Source: Bacteroidaceae bacterium
GTDB lineage: Bacteria; Bacteroidota; Bacteroidia; Bacteroidales; Bacteroidaceae
Assembly: GCA_017642425.1 (NCBI GenBank)
Contig: JAGCPB010000060.1
Span: forward strand, 1 to 51,225
Length of the DNA stretch: 51,225 bases
Direction: 5' to 3'
Position 1 is the stretch's first letter. Each line of letters opens with the position of its first letter. The position numbers and the translations under genes are program-made. The notes beneath the pieces were generated by a model that was given only the letters and a program-made list of their open reading frames with translations, was not told where the DNA came from and made no database searches. Of this stretch, positions 10,852 to 46,005 are shown one piece after another.

Positions 10852-13344
10852 TTAGAATTTAAGTGTTATGTGTCCAAGTGCCGAGAAGGGGGCTGTGGGT
10901 ATGAAACCAATCTGGTAGTAGCGGTTGTCAGGGGTAAAGCCGTCTTTCTCATCAACTGCCGAGTATACCCAGCCGCTTGTGGCAACACGGGCGTTAAGTA
11001 CATTGTTAAGGTCAGCACCTATCACGATGCTCTTGAATGTTTTTTTCATGGGTATTGTGTATGAGAACGAGAGATCCGAGAGAGAGTAGGCGGGCAGTGA
11101 ACGGTCGTTGTTGCCGGTGTTGTCAAGATACTGGCGGCTTACATAACCGGTATGCCATGTTGCATTGAAATTACCGAAATACAGGTTTACGAATCCGTTC
11201 AGGATTACTGACGGAGAGAAAGCCAGAGGTGTCTTGCCCTTGTGGGGTATGGTGCGCAGCTTGTCGCCGTTGCCGTCAATGTGGTAATTCTGCTTGTACT
11301 GGTCCATGTTGGGGTCATCGGCCGCATACTTGTCACGCCAGTCCTCTATGACCTCGTCAAAGTCGTTCAGGCAGTTCTCGCTGATGGCGGTGTTGCCCTC
11401 CAGTGACAGCCACTTGAGAGGCTGTACGGCAGCGGTGAGCTCTATGCCTGTGCGGTATGAAGACTTGATGTTGGTGGTCAGGTTCTCGCCTATGTCGCTC
11501 TTCATTCCGGTCTGTACAAACTGGTCCTTATAGTCCATGTAGTAGAGGTTGAATCCGGCGTTCCAGATATTGTCCTGAAAACTGTATCCTGCCTCATAGT
11601 CAATCATGTGCTCTGGAGTGGGAGCAGGGTAGGTACCGTTGTCGGTAAAGTTGTTGCGCTCGGGCTCACGGCCTGCGGTGGCTATGAGAGCATGCAGTTT
11701 GTGTCCTCCATTGATCCAGGTGAGGCCTGCCTTGGCGTTCAGGAAGTTGTATTTTTTATCAATGTCAAGGTTGTGTTTTGATGTGGTGCCGTCGGCATTT
11801 ACATAATAACGGTCATTGTAACCGTCGGTCCTGTAACCTACGTGACGGTACTGGACATCGGCAAACGCATGGAGACTCCCCAGTATGTCATATCCGGCCT
11901 TGATGTATGCGCTCAGGTCATTCTTGGTGGCATCTGAGTCATAATAGGTGTCCAGGCTGTTTGCATAGACATACTCTCTCAGGGCATCATCCTTTATGTA
12001 AGGCAGGCGTCCGAAATGGTTGCCCTTGAACTGCTGGAACGATACGCCGCTGCGCAGGTCAAGACTGCCGGTCTTGTAAGCATTGTTCCAGATAACGCCA
12101 TAGGTGTGCTGCTCCAAACCTTTCTTGCGGACAAAATCGGTCTTCTTTACAGTGTCTGTCGCGTTGATCCAGGCAGGATCTCCATCGGCGTTCAGATTAT
12201 TTGAAAGGCCGTACTTGCTTACCTTGTTCTTGTATCGGAATTCCTCATAGTATCCGTAACCGTAGGTGTAGTGGGCTGTAAGAGATGTCGAGAAGGCATC
12301 ATTTACATTCCAGGCCAGTGACAGGATGTTGTGGTCCTGCCAGAAATTATCGGTAGTACGGTCCCAGTATGAGCCGTCTTTCATCTGGTAGCGGTGGGTG
12401 ACGTACTTGCCGTCAGCATCCTGGACAAAGCACCAGTTGTCATCATCGTAATCCAGATACTCATACAGGCTGTTGTACTGGCCCAGTCCGGCGTTGTACA
12501 TATCCTTGTACTCCTTGATGCCGGTATTGCCCAGGTACATGCCGTCCATGAGGCTTGAGTCGTCGTTTCCGGCTGTTGCACCATTCCAGGCCTGGCCGGT
12601 ATTCTCAAAGTTGCCTATGTTGCGGTAACGGATCATCAGGTTGTCGCCGGGAGTCCAGAGCAGACCTGCATAGTAGCTGCCGGCCTTGCCTTGGGTTCCG
12701 TGCATGAAACCGTCGGTCTGGGTCATGTGGAACGCACCGTCCATTATTATGCTGTTAAGGATGGTTCCGGTTGAGAACGAGCCGCCCAGACGCATTGTGT
12801 TGAATGATCCGTATGATGCTGTAAGTTCGGCACTCTTTTCAGGGTTGGGTAGTTTGCTTGTCAGTGCTACGGAACCGCCGAATGCGCCGTCACCTACGGT
12901 CGATGTTCCCAGGCCACGCTGTACCTGTGCACCGCCAAGCAGGGATGCGTAACTGTTCATGTTGGCCCAGAATACGCACTGGTCCTCGGGGGAGTTAAGG
13001 GCAACGCCGTCCAGTGTTACGTTGATGCGTGAATCGGCCGCACCGCGTATGCGCATGTATGTGGTGCCGATGCCGGTTCCGTTCTCGCTCCATGATATCA
13101 CACCGGGTGTGCGTGCAAAGAGGAACGGCAGTTCACGGCCTGTCTTGGCGTAGCTTTCTAGTTCCTGACGGCTGATGTTGGTAGTTGCAAACGGCTCGTT
13201 TTCATGGGCACGTACTCCGTTTATTACTACTTCGTTAAGCTGTTCAAGACGCAGTGAATCCGCGTCGGATACAAGGTTCTCAGCAGCGGCCTTTGCTGTA
13301 AGGCATGCCACCAGGGTTAAGGACAAAAAAAATACCTTCTTCAT
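10852..13344 (-). CDS. TonB-dependent outer-membrane receptor, probably for thiamine
   Basis: 830 aa with an N-terminal signal peptide (MKKVFFLSLTLVACLTAKAAA). The plug domain spans about residues 30-170 (LNEVVINGVRAHENEPFATTN, then RIRGAADSRINVTLDG and GAQVQRGLGTSTVGDGAFGG), and a ~22-strand barrel ends in ALGHITLKF. There is no SusC-type carboxypeptidase-like N-terminal domain, so this is a small-molecule receptor rather than a glycan transporter. The TPP riboswitch just upstream and PnuT just downstream assign it to thiamine (or TPP/precursor) import across the outer membrane, powered by TonB. Confidence 0.85.
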   Translation of the reverse strand: MKKVFFLSLTLVACLTAKAAAENLVSDADSLRLEQLNEVVINGVRAHENEPFATTNISRQELESYAKTGRELPFLFARTPGVISWSENGTGIGTTYMRIRGAADSRINVTLDGVALNSPEDQCVFWANMNSYASLLGGAQVQRGLGTSTVGDGAFGGSVALTSKLPNPEKSAELTASYGSFNTMRLGGSFSTGTILNSIIMDGAFHMTQTDGFMHGTQGKAGSYYAGLLWTPGDNLMIRYRNIGNFENTGQAWNGATAGNDDSSLMDGMYLGNTGIKEYKDMYNAGLGQYNSLYEYLDYDDDNWCFVQDADGKYVTHRYQMKDGSYWDRTTDNFWQDHNILSLAWNVNDAFSTSLTAHYTYGYGYYEEFRYKNKVSKYGLSNNLNADGDPAWINATDTVKKTDFVRKKGLEQHTYGVIWNNAYKTGSLDLRSGVSFQQFKGNHFGRLPYIKDDALREYVYANSLDTYYDSDATKNDLSAYIKAGYDILGSLHAFADVQYRHVGYRTDGYNDRYYVNADGTTSKHNLDIDKKYNFLNAKAGLTWINGGHKLHALIATAGREPERNNFTDNGTYPAPTPEHMIDYEAGYSFQDNIWNAGFNLYYMDYKDQFVQTGMKSDIGENLTTNIKSSYRTGIELTAAVQPLKWLSLEGNTAISENCLNDFDEVIEDWRDKYAADDPNMDQYKQNYHIDGNGDKLRTIPHKGKTPLAFSPSVILNGFVNLYFGNFNATWHTGYVSRQYLDNTGNNDRSLPAYSLSDLSFSYTIPMKKTFKSIVIGADLNNVLNARVATSGWVYSAVDEKDGFTPDNRYYQIGFIPTAPFSALGHITLKF

Positions 13345-13390
13345 ATAGATTTAAAGTTTAATCCAAATGAAAAGGGTACACCGTCATTTT

Positions 13391-13470
13391 GAAATCCAAT
13401 CCCTCCGCCGGCACTGTCCGGATCAGGTTCATAGGGTATAATCTCAGCCCTTTTGGGGCACCCCCTTTCA
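13391..13470 (-). ncRNA. TPP riboswitch (THI element)
   Basis: On the minus strand the leader carries the hallmark blocks in order: GGGGTGCC, GGGCTGAGAT, ACCC, GAACCTGATCCGG and GCCGGCGGAGGGA, with matching helices P1 to P5. It lies between the promoter at 13480-13511 and the start codon at 13344. Binding of thiamine pyrophosphate would repress the TonB receptor/PnuT operon. About 46 nt separate the aptamer from the start codon, and no strong terminator is visible there, so control is probably translational. Confidence 0.95.
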
Positions 13471-13479
13471 TTCACGGCG

Positions 13480-35148: not shown

Positions 35149-37439
35149 ACGCTTGGGAATCCGTAAAGAGTGAGAACGTCACGCCATATGTTGTTCTTGA
35201 GGTAGAAATAGCTGCGTCTTACCTGCTGCGCCATCTCCACATCGCGATCCACACCGATGCCCCAGAAGAATGCCACGCTCAACTCATCAACGGCTTCGAT
35301 TGATCCGGCATCGATGGCCTGGAACAGGGAATGGATATACTGGTTATAATCAGACTGTACGCTCAGTCCGCTTTTGTATGCCAGTGCAATCTGCCAGTAG
35401 GCGTCGGCATAACCCTTTTCGGCCGATTTCCTGAAGCACTCCATTGACTGATCCAGATCACGGGTCTTGATTACACCCTCCTTGTAGGCGCGCCCCAGAC
35501 AATAGAGTGAGTAAGCGTCGCCTTGAGAGGCTCCCTTTTCATATTCGGCAGCCACCTCTTCCGGGTCAGAGTTGCCACTGGCCAGAATGTCACCGTTCAA
35601 ACCATACACATAGGGATTATAAGCCATAAGCATGGTACTCATCTGATGGTCGGACAGTTCGCGGAACTTCTTGCGCTGAATACGCATGGGATAATGCTTC
35701 TCGTCTATGGATAAGTTGTAATAGACAGGTATCAGCCATGCGCTGGCTCTCAGACATCCTGTCTCGGACAGCTTCTGCATCTGGACGACAGATTTGGACA
35801 GACGGTCCGTTTCATTGGCTTTCTTTCCCATTCCCACTCCGTAGTAACTCATGTATGCCAGCGGGAAAAGTTTGGTGGGATCAGTCTCAGCCTCAGTCTC
35901 AAGTCTTGTATACATGGCGCGGTACAGGGCGTTCTCCTGAACATTGCTGCTGTAAGTGTAGGGCTTGTAATTATCTGAAACCTTGAAAAGGTGGAAATTG
36001 CGCTCTTCGACTACTATGTCACGGCTGCCGTCGGCGGTTGTGTGCCGTTCACTGACTATGTAACTGCATGCCAAAACGTTTTCGGTAACGCTCTTGAGTG
36101 AGAAGTTGATTGTTGTCTGGAACTTCTCGTTTGACATCTTGCGGCCTGCGTAGTTGAGCAGGGTACTGCCTATACGGCTGGCTATGGCTCCGAACGGAAT
36201 CACCATTGACAGACCGTCCATGATATCACGTCCTATGGATGCAACATTCGGCTTGTCCTTTTTCTTGAGGGCAAAGGTAAAGTCAAAACTCTCTTCCGAA
36301 TAATCTCCTCTGGATGCGTTACCCCTAAGTTCACTTGCGTCAAAGTCTGCTCCGTCACTGGACCATATGCTCTTTACGGCATTCCAGGAGGTTTTGAACA
36401 TGCTGTTCTTCTTATCAAGGAACAGTCCCGATTCATCATTCAGCATCGCGGTCAGGGTATTTCCCATCTGGTCAATGTCCAGGATAATGAATTCGCGTCC
36501 TGTCTCCGGGCTTACATATGATGAGGCCCATTTGCCTATGAGGTCGTTCTTGCTGGAGAAACTGCGCTTTGGAGTGACCTTGGCGTTGTATGTGGCGTCA
36601 CGTTTCAGGTGGAGACCGTCAACTACGTCGGGATGCGGACTGAAAAGGTATGGAGTGTCACAATCAGGTTTGACTGCGGTGGCAACGGCTTTTTCCACAA
36701 TGCTTTCAGCCTCCTTCTGTATTTCCTGGGTTATTTCCGGCTCAGGTTCGGGCTCGGGTTCAGGTTGGGGCTCAGCCACATTGGCCATGGCCGTTTGGCC
36801 GGCGTTACTGAAGTCAACTGCCGATATATCAAACAGGGATACTTCCTGCCCGCCTTCGGGCTCGGGTGCAGCATCCTGATCGTTCTCAGTTGCATCTTCC
36901 GGTTCCGGATCGGGTTCCGGCTCCGGTTCTTTGGTGTTTGCCGATGCTATCAGGGCCGACAGATCAAACAGTGATGTGGCGCTGGTAGTAAAGGCCGGTG
37001 ATGTTTCAGGCTCCGGTTCCGGCTGGTTTGAGGCCGATGCCGTTGTCTGGGCAATAAGTTCCTTGAACTGCTCCTCTTCCTGCTGCTCAAAACTTTTGGC
37101 ACCAAGTTTCTGTTCCAGTTCTTTCATTCTGGGGGCTATTTCGGCCACCTTCTTGTCATCCATCTCGAGACTGGCATATGTGCGGTACATGACAAGGGCC
37201 AGTTCATTCTCGCTGCCGTCATCGTATATCTGGGCCATACGCAGGTAGGTGTCCGGCAGCTTGGGGTACATGGATGTGATTTCCTCGCAGATTGCTATAG
37301 CCTCAGCATCTTTGCCGCTGCTATGCAACTGGGTAATCTGATAGTATCTGCGCAACAGCTGGCCGCGTGTCATCTGGGCGTTTACACCGTCTGTAACAAT
37401 AAACAGGGCCAGTGCCAGTATAAACAGTATTCGCTTCAT
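35145..37439 (-). CDS. Exported TPR/Sel1-repeat protein with acidic Pro-Glu linkers
   Basis: 764 aa. Signal peptide 1-21. TPR-like helices lie at about 25-115 (GKDAEAIAICEEITSMYP, ENELALVMYRTYASLE). A low-complexity linker about 140-240 is rich in PEPEPE runs and holds two copies of a SLFD(L/I)SA motif. The central domain, about 265-500, is unknown (YVSPETGREFIILDIDQMGNTL; hydrophobic DGLSMVIPFGAIA). C-terminal Sel1 repeats span about 515-740 (GDAYSLYCLGRAYKEGV, GYADAYWQIALAYKSGL, SIEAVDELSVAFFWGIGVD). It appears to be a periplasmic scaffold. It starts 8 nt after the LPP20-like gene and overlaps the next gene by ATGA. Confidence 0.6.
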   Translation of the reverse strand: MKRILFILALALFIVTDGVNAQMTRGQLLRRYYQITQLHSSGKDAEAIAICEEITSMYPKLPDTYLRMAQIYDDGSENELALVMYRTYASLEMDDKKVAEIAPRMKELEQKLGAKSFEQQEEEQFKELIAQTTASASNQPEPEPETSPAFTTSATSLFDLSALIASANTKEPEPEPDPEPEDATENDQDAAPEPEGGQEVSLFDISAVDFSNAGQTAMANVAEPQPEPEPEPEPEITQEIQKEAESIVEKAVATAVKPDCDTPYLFSPHPDVVDGLHLKRDATYNAKVTPKRSFSSKNDLIGKWASSYVSPETGREFIILDIDQMGNTLTAMLNDESGLFLDKKNSMFKTSWNAVKSIWSSDGADFDASELRGNASRGDYSEESFDFTFALKKKDKPNVASIGRDIMDGLSMVIPFGAIASRIGSTLLNYAGRKMSNEKFQTTINFSLKSVTENVLACSYIVSERHTTADGSRDIVVEERNFHLFKVSDNYKPYTYSSNVQENALYRAMYTRLETEAETDPTKLFPLAYMSYYGVGMGKKANETDRLSKSVVQMQKLSETGCLRASAWLIPVYYNLSIDEKHYPMRIQRKKFRELSDHQMSTMLMAYNPYVYGLNGDILASGNSDPEEVAAEYEKGASQGDAYSLYCLGRAYKEGVIKTRDLDQSMECFRKSAEKGYADAYWQIALAYKSGLSVQSDYNQYIHSLFQAIDAGSIEAVDELSVAFFWGIGVDRDVEMAQQVRRSYFYLKNNIWRDVLTLYGFPSV

Positions 37440-40010: not shown

Positions 40011-40442
40011 TCATTTTTTTTCTGAAAAGAACTCCAGAGCCTCTCTGTAGCCGTCAAATCCATGTCCTTTTATGACCTTTTGGGCATAGAGTGAAACGTA
40101 TGAATGCCGGCGGAACTCCTCACGGGAGTCAATGTCGCTCAGATGAACCTCGACTGTGGGGATTGCCACAGCTTTAAGGGCGTCCAGTATGGCTACGCTG
40201 GTGTGTGTGTATGCTGCAGGATTTATGACTATGCCGTCAAAAACGCCGTACGCCTGCTGGATCTTATCCACAATTGCACCCTCATGGTTTGACTGGAAAC
40301 ACTCCACCTGAAAGCCCAGGTCAAGTCCGTTCTCAAGCACAAAAGCCTCAAGTGCCTTGTAATCACGGTTTCCGTAGATGGCAGGTTCGCGCAGACCAAG
40401 CAGGTTCAGGTTGGGACCGTTTATGACAAGAATCTTTTTCAT
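40011..40442 (-). CDS. aroQ: 3-dehydroquinate dehydratase, type II
   Basis: 143 aa, the usual length of the dodecameric type II enzyme. It has NGPNLNLLGLREPAIYG (8-24), with the catalytic Tyr at the end and Arg of the lid, then SNHEGAIVDKI, NPAAYTHTSVAILDAL (catalytic His) and VEVHLSDIDSREEFR. It dehydrates 3-dehydroquinate to 3-dehydroshikimate, the third shikimate-pathway step. It is the last gene of the aromatic operon, 9 nt after pheA, with a terminator just behind. No shikimate dehydrogenase, shikimate kinase or chorismate synthase is in the window. Confidence 0.95.
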   Translation of the reverse strand: MKKILVINGPNLNLLGLREPAIYGNRDYKALEAFVLENGLDLGFQVECFQSNHEGAIVDKIQQAYGVFDGIVINPAAYTHTSVAILDALKAVAIPTVEVHLSDIDSREEFRRHSYVSLYAQKVIKGHGFDGYREALEFFSEKK

Positions 40443-40451
40443 GCCGCTAAG

Positions 40452-41594
40452 TTAGATTATTTCCTGATAAGTGCCAAAGTATTTGAACTGCTCTCCGCAG
40501 TGGTCCAGCTCGCTTATAAGTGACGCGAACTTCTTGTCATAGATGGATAGCTCTATGTCAAAGTAGAACATGAACTCAAAGTCACGACCGGGAATTGGGC
40601 GGCTCTCCAGTTTAACCAGATTGGCTCCCGTGGCGTTGAATTTGCTGAGCACGCTGAACAGTGTACCGGGCTTGTGGCTTACCACCATCATTATGCTTGT
40701 GCGGTTGGCGCCAGGATAGATGCGGGCATCCTTGGCTATGCAGATAAAACGGGTATGGTTGCTGTCAAAGTTCTGGATGTCCTTGGCCAGTACCTCCATA
40801 TTATATAGGTCCGCACAGCTCTTTGATGATATTGATGCCGATGTGCGGGTGGTATCCTTTGATACTTTCTGTGCGGCCATTGCGGTATTGTCAAACGGTA
40901 TGATCTCAACGTTCTTCATGGCGCTCAGGAAGTGCGAGCACTGATCGATGGCCTGCGGGTGCGAATAGATGGTCTTTATGTCCTGGAACCTGGCGCCCTT
41001 GGCAGCCAGAAGCTGATGGTCAACCCTTACGCGGGTACTGCGTACTATATGGACATTGTACCTTATCAGAAGGTCGTATATCTCATTCACTGATCCTGCG
41101 GTAGAGTTCTCAATGGGCAGGATACCGTATTCGCACAGGCCGTCGGTAACCATGCGGATAACACCCTCAAAGGTGTTGTTGAACATTATCTCGGGAACCT
41201 CAAACAGTTTTTCGGCTGCAATCTGTGAGTATGCTCCCTCACGCCCCTGGCAGGCTACGACCGCACGTTTGGGGAACGGTGCCGGATCGGCGTTGATAAG
41301 GCTTGAAATGGCCTTGTAAAGCGGGGAGTCTTTCTCCTTATACATGGCCTCATAAGCCTTGCTTACGTCAAACATGGAACGGTAGAGAACCCGTCCAAAG
41401 TCTTCCAGGTCCTCGGGCAACTGTTTTGATATGCGTGCCAGCACCTCACGTTCGCGTGATCCGCTGCTAACGGGTACGTCATGGCTGCGTTTGTATTCGC
41501 CTATTTCGTTCACAACGTTCATGCGCTCGGCAAAAAGGCGGCAAATCTCATCGTCAATGTTGTCAATCTGTTTTCTGTAATCCGTAAGGTCCAT
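40452..41594 (-). CDS. pheA: Bifunctional chorismate mutase / prephenate dehydratase
   Basis: 380 aa. The ATG at 41594 is chosen because the chorismate mutase domain (AroQ type, about 1-90: DYRKQIDNIDDEICRLFAERMNVVNEIGEYKR) begins at once and the previous stop is 7 nt away. Prephenate dehydratase is at about 105-285: ACQGREGAYSQIAAEKLF, LPIENSTAGSVNEIYDLL, and the catalytic Thr-Arg-Phe in NHTRFICIAKD. An ACT domain follows (about 300-375; KPGTLFSVLSKF, LVKLESRPIPG), the Phe-binding regulatory site. It makes phenylpyruvate from chorismate and should be inhibited by phenylalanine. Confidence 0.93.
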   Translation of the reverse strand: MDLTDYRKQIDNIDDEICRLFAERMNVVNEIGEYKRSHDVPVSSGSREREVLARISKQLPEDLEDFGRVLYRSMFDVSKAYEAMYKEKDSPLYKAISSLINADPAPFPKRAVVACQGREGAYSQIAAEKLFEVPEIMFNNTFEGVIRMVTDGLCEYGILPIENSTAGSVNEIYDLLIRYNVHIVRSTRVRVDHQLLAAKGARFQDIKTIYSHPQAIDQCSHFLSAMKNVEIIPFDNTAMAAQKVSKDTTRTSASISSKSCADLYNMEVLAKDIQNFDSNHTRFICIAKDARIYPGANRTSIMMVVSHKPGTLFSVLSKFNATGANLVKLESRPIPGRDFEFMFYFDIELSIYDKKFASLISELDHCGEQFKYFGTYQEII

Positions 41595-41601
41595 AGGTAT
41601 A

Positions 41602-42867
41602 TTATTGTTGGTTAGATACTGTTCCGCCAAGCGCATTGAAATCGTCAAAGAATGCTGGATATGATTTTGCGGTGCACTCAGCATCGCTTATTGTTATCTG
41701 TACATCTTTGGTTGATGCCAGGATTGCGGCTGACATAGCCATGCGGTGGTCGCCAGACGGGTCGTATGTGCAACCTCGTGCCGGGCCTCCCGTTACGGTA
41801 AGGGTATTGTCCGATGCAAAAGCATATATTCCGGCCGTACCCAGAAGTTGCAGAATAGACTGCACCCGGTCACTCTCCTTAATGCGCAGACGGCGTATGT
41901 TATCAAATATCGTGGTTCCCTGGGCCGATGACGCTGCCACAGCAAGTATGGGCACAAGGTCAGGGATATCGGCACAGTCAATACGGGCTGCGGTGAGGTT
42001 TGACGGGCGGGCTGTGATGGTACCGCCGGCTGTTGAGATATCGGCTCCCATACTGCGCAGCACATTTATTATGCGGCGGTCGCCCTGGGCTGAGCATTCG
42101 TAATCCAGGCCGGTACAGGTTACTGGTTTGCTGCCTGCCACGCCTGCAGTAATCCAGAATGCGGCGGCAGACCAGTCGCCCTCAACGGCTATCTGAGTGC
42201 CGGGGGCGGTGAACTCCTGGCCGCTGGGAATGATATATCCGTCAGTGACAGTCTGTATCTCTATTCCAAACTGTTTCAATGCGTTCAGGGTAAGTGCAAT
42301 GTATGATGCGCTTTCCTGCTTGCCTGTTACTACGATCTTGCTTTGAATGCCGGTCAAGGGGAGAGCCATTAACAGGCCTGAAATAAATTGTGATGATACT
42401 CCTCCGTCTATCGTGTAGAGTCCGGCGGGCAGTTTACCTTCACATTTGAGCGGCATTTTGCCATTGGGAGTCATCTTTACGCCGTGTGCGGTCATCTCCT
42501 CATAAAGAGGTGAGAGCGGGCGCTCGGGCAGACGTCCCTGGCCTGTGAATGTGGCGTCGGCACCCAGTGCGGCGGCTACAGGGAGCAGAAATCTCAGGGT
42601 GGATCCGCTCTCTCCGCAGTCAAGGACGGCGCCTTTGATGACTTTTGTAATGGGGTTTACCGTGAACCTTCCGTCAGCATATCTGATATCTGCGCCAAGT
42701 GCGTTCAGGCAGGCGGCCGTAGCCTCCATGTCGCGGTTCACGCTCTGGCAGACAATGGTGCATGGACTGTCGGAAAGTGCGGCGCAAATGAGCATGCGGT
42801 GGGCTACCGATTTTGAAGGCGGCACCTGCACGTTTCCTGATACTGCTCCTGATACTTTAAAAATCAT
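41602..42867 (-). CDS. aroA: 3-phosphoshikimate 1-carboxyvinyltransferase (EPSP synthase)
   Basis: 421 aa. It has the two-domain inside-out barrel pattern: VPPSKSVAHRMLICAALSD near residue 17, GESGSTLRFLLPVAAALG (the PEP/shikimate-3-phosphate site), GVSSQFISGLLMALP, RIKESDRVQSI and GDHRMAMSAAIL. It adds enolpyruvate from PEP to shikimate 3-phosphate. Its start overlaps the aroB stop by ATGA (42864-42867), and pheA follows 7 nt after its stop. Confidence 0.95.
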   Translation of the reverse strand: MIFKVSGAVSGNVQVPPSKSVAHRMLICAALSDSPCTIVCQSVNRDMEATAACLNALGADIRYADGRFTVNPITKVIKGAVLDCGESGSTLRFLLPVAAALGADATFTGQGRLPERPLSPLYEEMTAHGVKMTPNGKMPLKCEGKLPAGLYTIDGGVSSQFISGLLMALPLTGIQSKIVVTGKQESASYIALTLNALKQFGIEIQTVTDGYIIPSGQEFTAPGTQIAVEGDWSAAAFWITAGVAGSKPVTCTGLDYECSAQGDRRIINVLRSMGADISTAGGTITARPSNLTAARIDCADIPDLVPILAVAASSAQGTTIFDNIRRLRIKESDRVQSILQLLGTAGIYAFASDNTLTVTGGPARGCTYDPSGDHRMAMSAAILASTKDVQITISDAECTAKSYPAFFDDFNALGGTVSNQQ

Positions 42868-43919
42868 AATCCGGCCTTTTTCATCAGTTCAAGTACCTGC
42901 AGGGCAGGCATTTTCTCAGGAGTGCTTGCTCCAATCTCCTTTGGCAGCACAAGTGTGATGTCAGCTCCGCTGCGCTTCTTGTCCGACAGGATCACGCTGT
43001 AGAGTTCATCGGCAGAGTATGGACAACCGGTCTCGAAACCGTAGTCCTTTATGACCTTTGTTATAACGTCGGTATAGTCTGTGAAACCGTACACTCGGGC
43101 AACCTTTGCGGCTATGATCATTCCGCGTGCAACGGCGCTTCCGTGGGTTATGGAAAAACCGCTCAGCTTCTCGATGGCATGACCGAATGTGTGGCCAAAG
43201 TTCAGAAGGCCGCGCATGCCCTTGTCAAATTCGTCCTGCTCCACAACGTCACGCTTTATCTCTATGCAGCGGGCAATCACCTCCTTAATGTCAAAACTGC
43301 CGGGCTTTGCAACTGCCTGGAACAGTTTGCTGTCCAAAATGATACCGTATTTTATAACTTCGGCAAAGCCGTCACGCATTACAGAGGGATCAAGTGTATT
43401 CAAAGTCTCAGTGTCCAGAAAGACAAGAGCGGGCTGATGGAATGCTCCTACCAGATTCTTTCCGGCGCTGATATCCACTGCGGTCTTTCCGCCTACCGAT
43501 GAATCAACGGCTGCCAGCAGGGTGGTGGGCACCTGTATATATGGAATGCCGCGCAGGTAAATTGCGGCAGCGAATCCGGCCATATCGCCCACAACGCCAC
43601 CGCCCAAAGCCAGCACCATGTCAGTGCGGGTAACCTGTGCCTTTACCATGCTGTCTATAAAGGCGGTCACGTTATCCAGGGTCTTGCTCTGTTCACCGTT
43701 GGCTATCACGTGGGTTACAATCCTGAAACCGGCAGACTGGAGCGAATCAGTTACAGTCTTGCCGTAGAGCGGGAATACCTTGTCGTCGCTCAGGATGGCT
43801 ACTGTACAGGGCTTGAAACGCTCTGCTGCAGCCTTGCCTAAACCGCTCAGACCACCCTTGCTTATAAGGATGTCATAAGTGCCTGAGGCATGGACGGTGA
43901 TTTTGGCTGTTGATTCCAT
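42864..43919 (-). CDS. aroB: 3-dehydroquinate synthase
   Basis: 351 aa. NAD-binding GGGVVGDMAGFAAAIYLRGI, VPTTLLAAVDSSVGGKTAVD and the metal-ligand region LLNFGHTFGHAIEKL, with Glu and His ligands, are all intact. It converts DAHP to 3-dehydroquinate, the second shikimate-pathway step. It starts 3 nt after the tyrA stop and overlaps aroA by ATGA, in the middle of the six-gene aromatic operon. Confidence 0.95.
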   Translation of the reverse strand: MESTAKITVHASGTYDILISKGGLSGLGKAAAERFKPCTVAILSDDKVFPLYGKTVTDSLQSAGFRIVTHVIANGEQSKTLDNVTAFIDSMVKAQVTRTDMVLALGGGVVGDMAGFAAAIYLRGIPYIQVPTTLLAAVDSSVGGKTAVDISAGKNLVGAFHQPALVFLDTETLNTLDPSVMRDGFAEVIKYGIILDSKLFQAVAKPGSFDIKEVIARCIEIKRDVVEQDEFDKGMRGLLNFGHTFGHAIEKLSGFSITHGSAVARGMIIAAKVARVYGFTDYTDVITKVIKDYGFETGCPYSADELYSVILSDKKRSGADITLVLPKEIGASTPEKMPALQVLELMKKAGL

Positions 43920-43922
43920 ATA

Positions 43923-44756
43923 TCAGTTCTTTTCTGAAAGTTCCTTTGCAATGCGTCCGTCACGCAGCAGCGCGCACAATGCCCGGGCATCATCGGCCTC
44001 CATGGCATCGGCGTACTGCGTGAGGTTGTCTATCAGGGTATGTATTTCGCGCAGAAGGTTGTCCTTGTTCTCAAGGAACAACTCTGTCCACATGTTCTCG
44101 TTGAGCCAGGCTACGCGGGTCAGGTCGCGGAAACTGCCTGCGCTGTAGCCTTTGTGCTGCTGGGCCGACGGGCTCTTGACATAGGCGTTTGACACCACAT
44201 GGGCCAACTGTGACGTGAATGCTATCATGCTGTCATGCTGGTCAGGGGTGGTGAATACCACGCGCTTCAACTGCATGGGTTCCAGCAGTCTCTTTATGTG
44301 ATCAAGAAGTTCAATGTCATCATGTGTGGGCGGAACGATTATCATGGATGCGTTCTGGAACATGGTGGCACGTGAATTCTTGTAGCCCGACAGATGTGTC
44401 CCTGCCATGGGATGCCCGCCTGCGTATGTGAATCCGTACCTGGCGGCAACCTTCATTCCGCACTCCACCACTTTGCGCTTGGTTCCGCAGTCATCAATTA
44501 CAACTGTTTGGGGTGCTATCTCGGGACCGTGTTGTTCCAGCCATCGGCAGGCGGCATCGGGAGTGACGGCAATATGTATAAGGTCACACTGCTTTATGTT
44601 TCTGCTGTCAAGTACGGCAGAGAGTGTGCCTTCCAGCTCGGCAAAGCGGCTTACGGATTCATTAAGGTCAAAACCATAGACAGTCCAGCCGGCAGCCGCG
44701 TATGCCTTGGCAAGCGATCCGCCTATCAGTCCCAATCCTACAACTGCTACAATCAT
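43923..44756 (-). CDS. tyrA: Prephenate (or arogenate) dehydrogenase
   Basis: 277 aa. Rossmann motif VGLGLIGGSLAKAYAAAG (6-23), then DDCGTKRKVVE, GGHPMAGTHLSGYKN (catalytic His) and an all-helical dimerisation domain. There is no ACT or chorismate mutase fusion, so it is a stand-alone TyrA. It oxidatively decarboxylates prephenate towards tyrosine. It lies 42 nt after the DAHP synthase gene and 3 nt before aroB. Confidence 0.92.
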   Translation of the reverse strand: MIVAVVGLGLIGGSLAKAYAAAGWTVYGFDLNESVSRFAELEGTLSAVLDSRNIKQCDLIHIAVTPDAACRWLEQHGPEIAPQTVVIDDCGTKRKVVECGMKVAARYGFTYAGGHPMAGTHLSGYKNSRATMFQNASMIIVPPTHDDIELLDHIKRLLEPMQLKRVVFTTPDQHDSMIAFTSQLAHVVSNAYVKSPSAQQHKGYSAGSFRDLTRVAWLNENMWTELFLENKDNLLREIHTLIDNLTQYADAMEADDARALCALLRDGRIAKELSEKN

Positions 44757-44798: not shown

Positions 44799-45809
44799 TC
44801 AAATGATTTCCTTAAGTGCTGTCACCTTCCGTGCAACCTGGTCAAACTGTGCGGGGGTGAGTGACTGTGCTCCGTCACAGAGGGCGTGCTCTGGGTCATT
44901 ATGGACCTCTATTATAAGGCCGTCAGCTCCGGCGGCAACGGCTGCAAGACTCATGGACGGAACCAGACGTGACTTTCCTGTGGCGTGGCTGGGATCCACT
45001 ATGATGGGCAGATGCGACAGCTCCTTTACGACAGGAATGGCCGAAAGGTCAAGCACGTTGCGGGTGTAGTTGTCATAACTGCGAATGCCTCGCTCGCACA
45101 GCACTATGTTCTCATTGCCGCCGGCCATGATGTACTCGGCACTCATGAGCCACTCCTTTATGGTACTGGAAAGGCCGCGTTTGAGCAGGATAGGCTTCTT
45201 GGTGCGGCCCAGAGTCTTGAGCAGTTCAAAGTTCTGCATGTTGCGTGCACCAACCTGAATCATATCCACGTCGGCAAACATGTCCAGGTGTTTTTCACTC
45301 ATGATTTCGGTCACGATAGGCAGACCTGTAGCCTGACGTGCCTTACGCAGCAGTTCCAGACCGTCTGCTCCCATTCCCTGAAAGTCATACGGGCTTGTAC
45401 GGGGCTTGAAAGCGCCGCCGCGCAGCAGTGTGGCACCCGATGCCTTCACGGCCTTGGCAATTCCGGTTATCTGCTCCTCGGACTCTACCGAGCAGGGACC
45501 TGCTATTATGGCAAAGTTGCCCCCGCCAATCCTGACCTTGTTCTCACCCTCGCCAATCTCTACGATTGTGTCGGCGGGATGGAAACGGCGGTTGGCGCAC
45601 TTGAACGGCTCGCTTATGCGTGTAACGCTCTCAATAATGTCCAGTCCGCTAAGCAGATCGGGGTCAATCCGGCTGGTATCACCTATAAGACCTATTACTG
45701 TCTGGAACTGGCCTTCGGATATGTGTACGTCCACTCCCTGGCCCTTGATCCAGTTGATGAGGTTTTTCTTTTGAGTCTCTGAGACTCCTGCTTTAAGTAC
45801 TGCTATCAT
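44799..45809 (-). CDS. aroF: DAHP synthase (3-deoxy-7-phosphoheptulonate synthase), type I-beta with N-terminal regulatory domain
   Basis: 336 aa. The N-terminal ~70 residues form the ferredoxin-like (ACT-type) regulatory domain of Thermotoga-style enzymes (QKKNLINWIKGQGVDVHISEGQFQTVIGLIGD). The barrel carries IIAGPCSVES, RGGAFKPRTSPYDFQG, QVGARNMQNFELL, LLKRG and VDPSHATGKS with metal and PEP ligands. It condenses PEP and erythrose 4-phosphate, the committed step, and is probably feedback-inhibited by Tyr or Phe through the N-domain. It is the first structural gene behind the aromatic leader peptide and terminator at 45839-45978. The symbol follows common usage for the first DAHP synthase and is not a claim of E. 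coli isozyme identity. Confidence 0.93.
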   Translation of the reverse strand: MIAVLKAGVSETQKKNLINWIKGQGVDVHISEGQFQTVIGLIGDTSRIDPDLLSGLDIIESVTRISEPFKCANRRFHPADTIVEIGEGENKVRIGGGNFAIIAGPCSVESEEQITGIAKAVKASGATLLRGGAFKPRTSPYDFQGMGADGLELLRKARQATGLPIVTEIMSEKHLDMFADVDMIQVGARNMQNFELLKTLGRTKKPILLKRGLSSTIKEWLMSAEYIMAGGNENIVLCERGIRSYDNYTRNVLDLSAIPVVKELSHLPIIVDPSHATGKSRLVPSMSLAAVAAGADGLIIEVHNDPEHALCDGAQSLTPAQFDQVARKVTALKEII

Positions 45810-45838: not shown

Positions 45839-45868
45839 ACAAAAAAGCCCGGATTATCGGTCCGGGCT
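45839..45868 (-). terminator. attenuator terminator upstream of the aro operon
   Basis: An 8-bp stem (45846-45853 with 45861-45868, AGCCCGGA and complement) with a 7-nt loop is followed on the minus strand by TTTTTT and GTTAC. It lies between the leader peptide and the DAHP synthase start (30 nt away), so it must be bypassed for operon expression. Confidence 0.85.
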
Positions 45869-45949
45869 CTCTGTCATCTATTGTTGGTACGCATACAACA
45901 AATTACCCGGCATATTGTCTGGTAAACCAAAAGTAATAGAAGTATGCGT
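45846..45949 (-). promoter_or_regulatory. mutually exclusive RNA pairings of the aro attenuator
   Basis: On the minus strand ACGCATAC (45949-45942), inside the leader peptide just before the aromatic codons, complements GTATGCGT (45896-45889). TTGTTG (45901-45896) and CAACAA (45886-45881) form a small hairpin. GCCGGGT at the leader stop (45911-45905) complements the 5' arm of the terminator (GCCCGG, 45867-45862). A ribosome at the stop would mask GCCGGGT and let the terminator form. One stalled at the Tyr/Phe/Trp codons would leave it free to antiterminate. The pairing roles are inferred. Confidence 0.6.
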
Positions 45950-45962
45950 TAACAGTTCTCAT
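45903..45962 (-). CDS. aromatic-rich leader peptide of the aro operon
   Basis: 19 codons plus TAA, minus strand: MRTVNAYFYYFWFTRQYAG. Eight of 19 residues are aromatic (four Tyr, three Phe, one Trp), and positions 7-13 (YFYYFWF) are seven aromatics in a row. It lies directly in front of an intrinsic terminator and the DAHP synthase gene. This is the pattern of a ribosome-mediated attenuation peptide that senses charged tRNA-Tyr, tRNA-Phe and tRNA-Trp. Its ATG lies only 8 nt from the end of the -7 box, so the mRNA has almost no 5' UTR. Confidence 0.9.
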   Translation of the reverse strand: MRTVNAYFYYFWFTRQYAG

Positions 45963-45970
45963 ATCGTCCG

Positions 45971-46005
45971 CAAAGGTATGCAACATTTTTACATGTTGTC
46001 TCAAA
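45971..46005 (-). promoter_or_regulatory. promoter of the aro operon
   Basis: On the minus strand TACCTTTG (45978-45971) is an exact -7 box, and TTTG (46005-46002) lies 23 nt upstream as a -33 element. The leader ATG is at 45962. Confidence 0.6.

Follow-up and report, generated by a model that had tools for sequence, protein, structure and literature searches.

The locus studied here raises the question of whether a bacterium of the Bacteroidaceae adjusts the synthesis of its aromatic amino acids through a ribosome translating a short leader peptide and, if so, where such an element came from. The window, meaning the whole 51,225-nt stretch of contig JAGCPB010000060.1 that was analysed, contains a 19-codon open reading frame, MRTVNAYFYYFWFTRQYAG* (45962..45903), with seven consecutive Tyr/Phe/Trp codons, as the initial annotation had reported; codons 7–13 (45924..45944) read Tyr Phe Tyr Tyr Phe Trp Phe and form the predicted stall region. 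A Bacteroidetes-type promoter box lies on its 5' side and an intrinsic terminator on its 3' side, a DAHP synthase gene begins 93 nt downstream, and every element of the leader region (45839-46005) is on the minus strand, which that annotation had left unstated. Its broader claim, of a leader peptide, alternative RNA structures and a terminator ahead of an operon for the common pathway and both branches, is borne out by what is present in the sequence. We put at roughly 85% the probability that the element is a ribosome-mediated transcription attenuator of the trp/phe type. It was most likely acquired together with its operon from Clostridia.

The operon consists of six genes, all on the minus strand and all confirmed by NCBIfam or Pfam, that cover the common pathway and the Tyr and Phe branches and are probably read as a single transcript: a type I DAHP synthase with a ferredoxin-like N-terminal domain (44799..45809; NF006421, TIGR01361, PF00793, PF18152), tyrA, encoding prephenate dehydrogenase (43923..44756; PF02153, PF20463), aroB, encoding 3-dehydroquinate synthase (42864..43919; TIGR01357), aroA, encoding EPSP synthase (41602..42867; TIGR01356), a chorismate mutase-prephenate dehydratase fusion, pheA (40452..41684; PF01817 and PF00800), and aroQ, encoding type II 3-dehydroquinase (40011..40442; TIGR01088, PF01220). 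At curated score, neither a T-box nor any other Rfam family was found at the leader, the sole match in the window being a TPP riboswitch (13383-13475, minus strand) upstream of a gene (10852-13344) that by eye resembles one for a TonB-dependent receptor.

The promoter proposed in the initial annotation can be identified as a -7 box, TACCTTTG (45978..45971, minus strand), that fits TAnnTTTG, the Bacteroidetes consensus given in the available text of PMC7366714; a sigma-70-type promoter had zero matches in a scan of the window. A possible -33 element, TTTG (46005..46002, minus strand), lies 23 nt upstream of the -7 box and is without conservation in the leader alignment. The distance from TAnnTTTG to the leader ATG is exactly 8 nt in 20 of 22 loci and 9 nt in one, and the box is displaced in the remaining one, L018, where an inverted repeat (1323-1469 and just upstream) lies between the displaced TAnnTTTG-like box and the ATG, unlike the 21 other loci in this analysis. 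Because the ATG is only 8 nt past the box, the transcript is expected to start within a few nucleotides of the ATG, leaving a 5' UTR of only a few nucleotides; in Bacteroides thetaiotaomicron, 5' UTRs of less than 10 nt make up ~3.7% of the total, according to the portion of PMC7366714 available. No Shine-Dalgarno-like word before the leader was seen by eye in the genus alignment.

Protein searches for homologues of the DAHP synthase covered 61 related genomes and then 301 genomes of the family. Of the 37 genus genomes, 22 have a close match; three other genera gave matches at E<=1e-60, so that this DAHP synthase occurs in 4 of the 30 genera of the family. The other 15 genus genomes lack a close match, and some of them may be aromatic auxotrophs or incomplete. 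The relatives bear out the expectation that the peptide would be conserved: of the 25 loci from the genus and from genus g54, 24 retain the leader (22 genus loci, a second copy, L050, in genome G022, and L031 from g54), with DAHP synthase identities of 80–99%. The single leaderless locus is L051, a second operon copy (G003:C117; 178 nt available upstream). Unrelated sequence containing an inverted repeat, probably an insertion element, stands there in place of the leader and the 5' half of the terminator, whose 3' half remains. Across the leaders, the short reading frame has codons for the end products of the pathway, and 6–7 codons in 8 are aromatic. Tyr and Phe swap positions (YFYYFWF, YYFYFWF, YFFYFYF) while the aromatic run is kept, and in most leaders the aromatic positions vary only among Tyr, Phe and Trp; the runs of L020 and L031 each include one residue of another kind. 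A single Trp codon is present in 19/24 leaders and none in 5/24 (L018, L020, L021, L022, L031), and a separate leader with the run WWW precedes trpB. The claim that one peptide senses Tyr, Phe and Trp together is thus not upheld, and, judged by its codons, the leader is mainly a Tyr/Phe sensor.

An aromatic run of six codons is not unusual by itself, with 12 matches in the window's whole genome against 14 in a reversed control, and what exceeds chance is its conservation at those loci. Four of the seven other places in this genome that matched the six-codon pattern were inspected for further aromatic leaders, and none was leader-like. The gene is also present at 3 loci of genus g46 and 15 of genus g45, with a convincing leader in 0 of 18 within 500 nt upstream, and additional g45 loci gave no convincing leader either, the best reading frame having 5 aromatic residues in 8 (L062). 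By eye, TAnnTTTG-like boxes stand near the gene in the seven upstream regions of this leaderless type that were printed, and an Rfam scan at the DAHP synthase of ten loci from leaderless genera returned nothing but one tRNA. A second, native DAHP synthase-chorismate mutase gene is retained, and has no leader, in the three genomes inspected (with a family scan on one of the three).

The terminator, AGCCCGGA-N7-TCCGGGCT followed by a T-run (45868..45841, minus strand), was missed by a simple terminator scanner and found by a separate hairpin search; a GC-rich hairpin with a T-run is present in all 23 leaders of the genus alignment. It competes for sequence with an antiterminator on the same strand, whose 5' arm, CCGGGT (45905..45910), overlaps the leader stop codon and is extended by a second 5' helix strand, TTTGTTGT (45895..45902), with ATGACAGA (45870..45877) on the 3' side; GCCCGG (45862..45867) is common to the antiterminator 3' arm and the terminator 5' arm. 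In the window, CCGGGU and UUUGUUGU pair with AUGACAGA and GCCCGG, and in most members the second helix is UUUGUUGU:AUAACAGA, so that the pairing of GCCGGGT with the terminator 5' arm described in the initial annotation is confirmed and the antiterminator is longer than was noted. A 1:2 hairpin is formed by segment 1, ACGCATAC (codons 5-7, 45942..45949, minus strand), and segment 2b, GTATGCGT (45889..45896, minus strand), with an inner part in which TTACC (45921..45925, minus strand) pairs with GGTAA (45903-45907). This second leader pairing had also been pointed out, and it holds in part: all 8 pairs form in the window and each of six core pairs, GCAUAC:GUAUGC, is kept in 21–24 of 24 homologues, but the second pair is broken in 16/24.

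For these structures, which had been drawn from the same sequences on which they were then tested, the terminator helix was 98.4% paired over 24 sequences, the antiterminator 94.3% (against at most 54.5% when slid), the terminator and 1:2 helices together 94.2% (against at most 40.3% when slid), and the nearly invariant inner part of the 1:2 hairpin 99.2% of cells. All 14 antiterminator pairs are present in 19 of 24 rows and 7–11 of them in the other five, some of which are misaligned. The covariation of terminator and antiterminator that the initial annotation had suggested looking for is seen, modestly, for one of the two: the antiterminator has both-sided changes at 3 pairs, a number reached by 13/500 shuffles, although shifting the same helix by -3 gives 3 as well, with a covariation score above that of the unshifted helix (0.109 vs 0.091), whereas the conserved terminator and 1:2 helices have no excess (144/500 shuffles as high). 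Covariation inside the genus is thin. In the divergent L018, whose row is misregistered in the computed alignment, CUGCAUAC/GUAUGCAG was seen by eye to replace ACGCAUAC/GUAUGCGU.

Geometry, folding and motif counts were obtained on 22 loci, L031 (no terminator found by the script) and L050 being left out. The last aromatic codon stands 15–17 nt before CCGGG in 22/22, and a stall anywhere on the run leaves the antiterminator arm free, on the assumption that ribosome cover extends 13 nt from the A site. Under the same cover, a ribosome at the stop codon lies over that arm, and the absence of any antiterminator in that position is by construction. In transcripts ending before the terminator 3' arm, a stalled ribosome gives an antiterminator probability of 0.99–1.0 in 21/22 loci, and the same partial transcripts without a ribosome give 0.76–1.0 in 21/22; the exception is L020, for which folding does not predict the antiterminator. 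Once the transcript is full length, equilibrium folding favours the terminator even when a ribosome is stalled (0.82–1.0 in 22/22), and the choice between antiterminator and terminator must therefore be kinetic. Since the antiterminator is favoured in the absence of a ribosome, the proposition that no translation gives termination, through a protective 1:2 hairpin like that of trp, is unsupported. The pairs of the 1:2 hairpin are conserved, yet it is predicted to be too weak at equilibrium to block the antiterminator without a ribosome, and its role in attenuation is putative.

These features suggest the following course of events. The transcript would start right beside the leader ATG. As long as Tyr-tRNA and Phe-tRNA are charged, the ribosome would reach the stop codon and lie over CCGGGU and UUUGUUGU, blocking the antiterminator, and the GC-rich terminator would end the transcript at ~122–130 nt. 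If Tyr or Phe (or, in one subclade, Trp) were short, the ribosome would stall at codons 7–13, at least 15 nt before CCGGG, and CCGGGU:GCCCGG together with UUUGUUGU:AUGACAGA could form before the terminator 3' arm was made, allowing the six-gene operon to be transcribed.

Relatives of the operon extend well beyond the family. We scanned named genomes and examined the best 80 loci among the matches listed, a sample in which the family's other genera are absent: two from Bacteroidales MAGs (L064, L065), one from a Treponema MAG, and 77 others, whose titles name Clostridia or other Bacillota in 76 cases. An aromatic leader is present in 69/80, with a terminator in 67 of those; the non-Bacteroidales loci among these 80 account for 67/78, with a terminator in 65 of the 67. 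The gene order DAHPS-tyrA-aroB-aroA-pheA is found in most of the 80, where the contig reaches. Ten further non-Bacteroidales loci among them have no leader by our criterion, and L107 offers only 57 nt of upstream sequence. At least 6 aromatic residues in 8 occur in 63 of 77 upstream regions of the non-Bacteroidales relatives; among 2868 background windows, mostly coding sequence, 8 reach this level. Of 67 chosen starts, 60 have a Shine-Dalgarno-like word in front of them compared with 11.3% of random positions, a figure that is inflated by a choice of starts favouring such words. Cognate antiterminator pairings were stronger than reassigned ones (-11.64 vs -10.66 kcal/mol), with 1 of 2000 permutations as low, or 5 of 2000 when the Bacteroidales were removed; the cognate partner had a median rank of 22 of 67, and taken singly 13 of 67 pairings (65 non-Bacteroidales and 2 Bacteroidales) beat their shuffles at p<0.05. 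TGCTGC occurs in segment 2 of 34 of 67 leaders among the best 80 loci. The Treponema-labelled MAG (L071) has a clostridial-type DAHP synthase preceded by an aromatic leader with a TTG start, possibly another cross-phylum case or a mis-binned contig. Rfam gave no match at 10 clostridial loci.

Leader peptides also stand before other aromatic genes in Bacteroidales. Among 198 genomes of the order searched, 80 had a match to stand-alone pheA (prephenate dehydratase), and an aromatic leader precedes the gene in 27 of the best 30 loci examined (L185-L214), 25 of them with a terminator; the background of this survey at the level of 6 aromatic residues in 8 was 1/300 windows. Twenty weak hits of the covariance model (L165-L184) comprise 15 aromatic leaders before prephenate dehydratase, one Trp leader before trpB and one leader before another gene, while three candidates (L167, L170, L178) were rejected as plain terminators. 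In the last of these leaders (L169:620-798), a pheA-type aromatic leader is followed by a different gene (361 aa) in place of pheA. The stand-alone pheA has no close match in the 37 genus genomes. The window's own genome has a Trp leader, MHLSFWWWLDSGLKQS (WWW), with a hairpin and T-run before trpB (L255; G000:C59, trpB at 35967-37142, minus strand), and such leaders precede trpB in all 16 genus loci examined of 19 listed (L242-L257; 15 WWW, one WRW), the partial loci L258-L260 being left out of the count. A two-Trp filter retained 13 of 29 trpB loci across the order, and 12 of these then have a T-run. No Rfam match was found at 12 pheA and trpB loci. A search for a His leader in the window's genome gave 42 pattern matches and no short His reading frame in 5 of 6 fetched loci scanned. 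To judge from this distribution, leader peptides are probably a common means of controlling aromatic amino acid synthesis in Bacteroidales. The earlier remark that attenuation is little described in Bacteroidetes agrees with the literature searched, but not with how often such leaders are found at pheA and trpB.

With other Bacteroidales genes as the root, the DAHP synthase tree nests the family among clostridial genes beside the leader-bearing L067 and L089; the careful tree has no star at its key forks (94/96, 99/72), and clostridial monophyly is not rejected by the AU test (p 0.307), so that the direction of transfer rests on the distribution and on the shape of the trees. In an unrooted four-gene tree (39 rows, quick method), the family and L067 come together at an SH-aLRT of 100, with the family and Clostridia parted by one branch at 73. 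The aromatic leaders found in most non-Bacteroidales loci of the best 80, mostly with the same gene order, lead us to conclude that operon and attenuator probably crossed phyla together, after which the element would have been refitted with a Bacteroidetes promoter. The leader might instead derive from the pheA attenuator native to the host family and not have arrived with a clostridial operon, a serious alternative that we nevertheless think unlikely. It would account for the better fit of pheA leaders to the covariance model (37.2–45.5 bits for 15 of them, against at most 30.6 bits for clostridial leaders, of which 5/78 loci were listed at E<=1) and for the NAY and GCATA/TATGC segments that the two have in common by eye. 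The finer motifs argue against it: Phe-Thr follows the run in 22/22 genus leaders, 12/65 clostridial and 1/40 pheA leaders; TAATTTGT is present in 18/22, 4/65 and 0/40, respectively; and the word AAGTRAR, found in 15/65 clostridial and 16/40 pheA leaders, occurs in 0/22 genus leaders. Phe-Thr and TAATTTGT would tie the genus leaders to the clostridial rather than to the pheA ones, and the clostridial neighbours in the tree, L067 and L089, carry leaders themselves. The pairing of the run with segment 2 gave a weak signal against synonymous-codon controls, exceeding them at p<0.05 in 0/22 genus and 8/65 clostridial leaders and, in two sets of pheA leaders, in 3/25 and 1/15; it exceeded shuffled segment 2 in 0/22, 29/65, 6/25 and 8/15, respectively.

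Independent origins, with aromatic pathways favouring such a design, would be compatible with motifs that differ among groups and with two genera that have the gene and no leader, and the leaders are too short for a tree of their own. We regard such convergence as rather improbable, considering that operon order and leader position are shared by most relatives among the best 80 loci and that the four-gene tree joins the family with the leader-bearing L067. Starting from joint transfer, it is conceivable, as a tentative picture held at somewhat less than even odds, that a single family of Tyr/Phe attenuators, lacking an Rfam model, serves DAHP synthase operons in Clostridia and pheA in Bacteroidales, and that a clostridial operon with its attenuator crossed into one Bacteroidaceae genus, where it was rebuilt without Shine-Dalgarno words, nearly leaderless and with read-through as its untranslated default.

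Whatever its origin, the hairpin could be a constitutive terminator, or one answering another signal, beside an aromatic reading frame that is incidental. The terminator is indeed the preferred equilibrium end state at every locus analysed, ribosome or not, and six-codon aromatic runs are about as frequent in the genome as in the reversed control. We nonetheless find this most improbable, in view of the retention of the frame through Tyr/Phe-exchanging changes at all but one of the 25 loci, the fixed spacing of run, stop codon and antiterminator, the comparable arrangement before DAHP synthase outside Bacteroidales and before pheA within the order, and the lack of any Rfam riboswitch or T-box at the loci scanned. 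Translational or Rho-dependent control, in which stalling would alter access to the DAHP synthase start or Rho loading, has precedents such as E. coli tna (as cited in the text available from PMC1262725) and is the least credible reading, given the GC-rich hairpin and T-run in all 23 aligned leaders and the one segment common to two competing helices.

The locus, read as a ribosome-mediated attenuator, offers a testable example of an operon and attenuator that co-occur in two phyla and are uncoupled in two related genera. Naville and Gautheret, in the text of PMC2965389 available, did not decide between transfer of leader peptides from phylum to phylum and their repeated emergence; the atypical ermC leader aside, they were aware of no case demonstrated outside Proteobacteria and Actinobacteria prior to the one they described. 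Leader-peptide control in Bacteroidales may represent a layer of regulation without an Rfam match at the loci scanned, and could supply natural Tyr/Phe and Trp sensors for Bacteroides genetics.

The E. coli pheA and trp operons are governed by leader-peptide attenuators, in which regulatory codons lie in a short leader, antiterminator and terminator are mutually exclusive, and the position of the ribosome decides between them. The element described here is predicted to resemble them in each of these respects, and differs in its mixed Tyr/Phe(/Trp) run, in an operon that unites the common pathway with the Tyr and Phe branches, and in its Bacteroidetes promoter box, which stands so near the leader that a 5' UTR has hardly any space. 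A full-text literature search, with subscription papers mostly outside its scope, found no description of a DAHP synthase leader peptide in Bacteroidetes. Closest by phylum is Flavobacterium psychrophilum, for which leader-peptide candidates upstream of amino acid operons and a conserved, structured 5' element at pheA have been proposed (PMC9723704); the comparison is by description, the available text containing neither the peptide sequence nor an element at DAHP synthase. Aromatic-codon reading frames before DAHP synthase or shikimate genes are described, as far as the available texts go, in Acholeplasma, where uORFC-13-1 upstream of aroF also has a terminator (PMC8632094) and the host is the point of difference, and as two Phe/Tyr uORF candidates whose source genome is unstated, Clostridium novyi being among the five genomes covered (PMC6429828). 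Some of the clostridial leaders may already be catalogued in the latter, compared by description and not by alignment. The clostridial DAHP synthase leaders (L066-L143, for example that of Sporobacter termitidis, L092) mostly resemble those of the genus in operon order, position, aromatic run and terminator, and differ in their Shine-Dalgarno-like words and in other pairing sequences, often with TGCTGC in segment 2. Set beside these systems, it is a sound conclusion on sequence grounds that the element is a conserved attenuator of classical type, and that it would be new in its host, its operon, its nearly leaderless start and its probable transfer between phyla.
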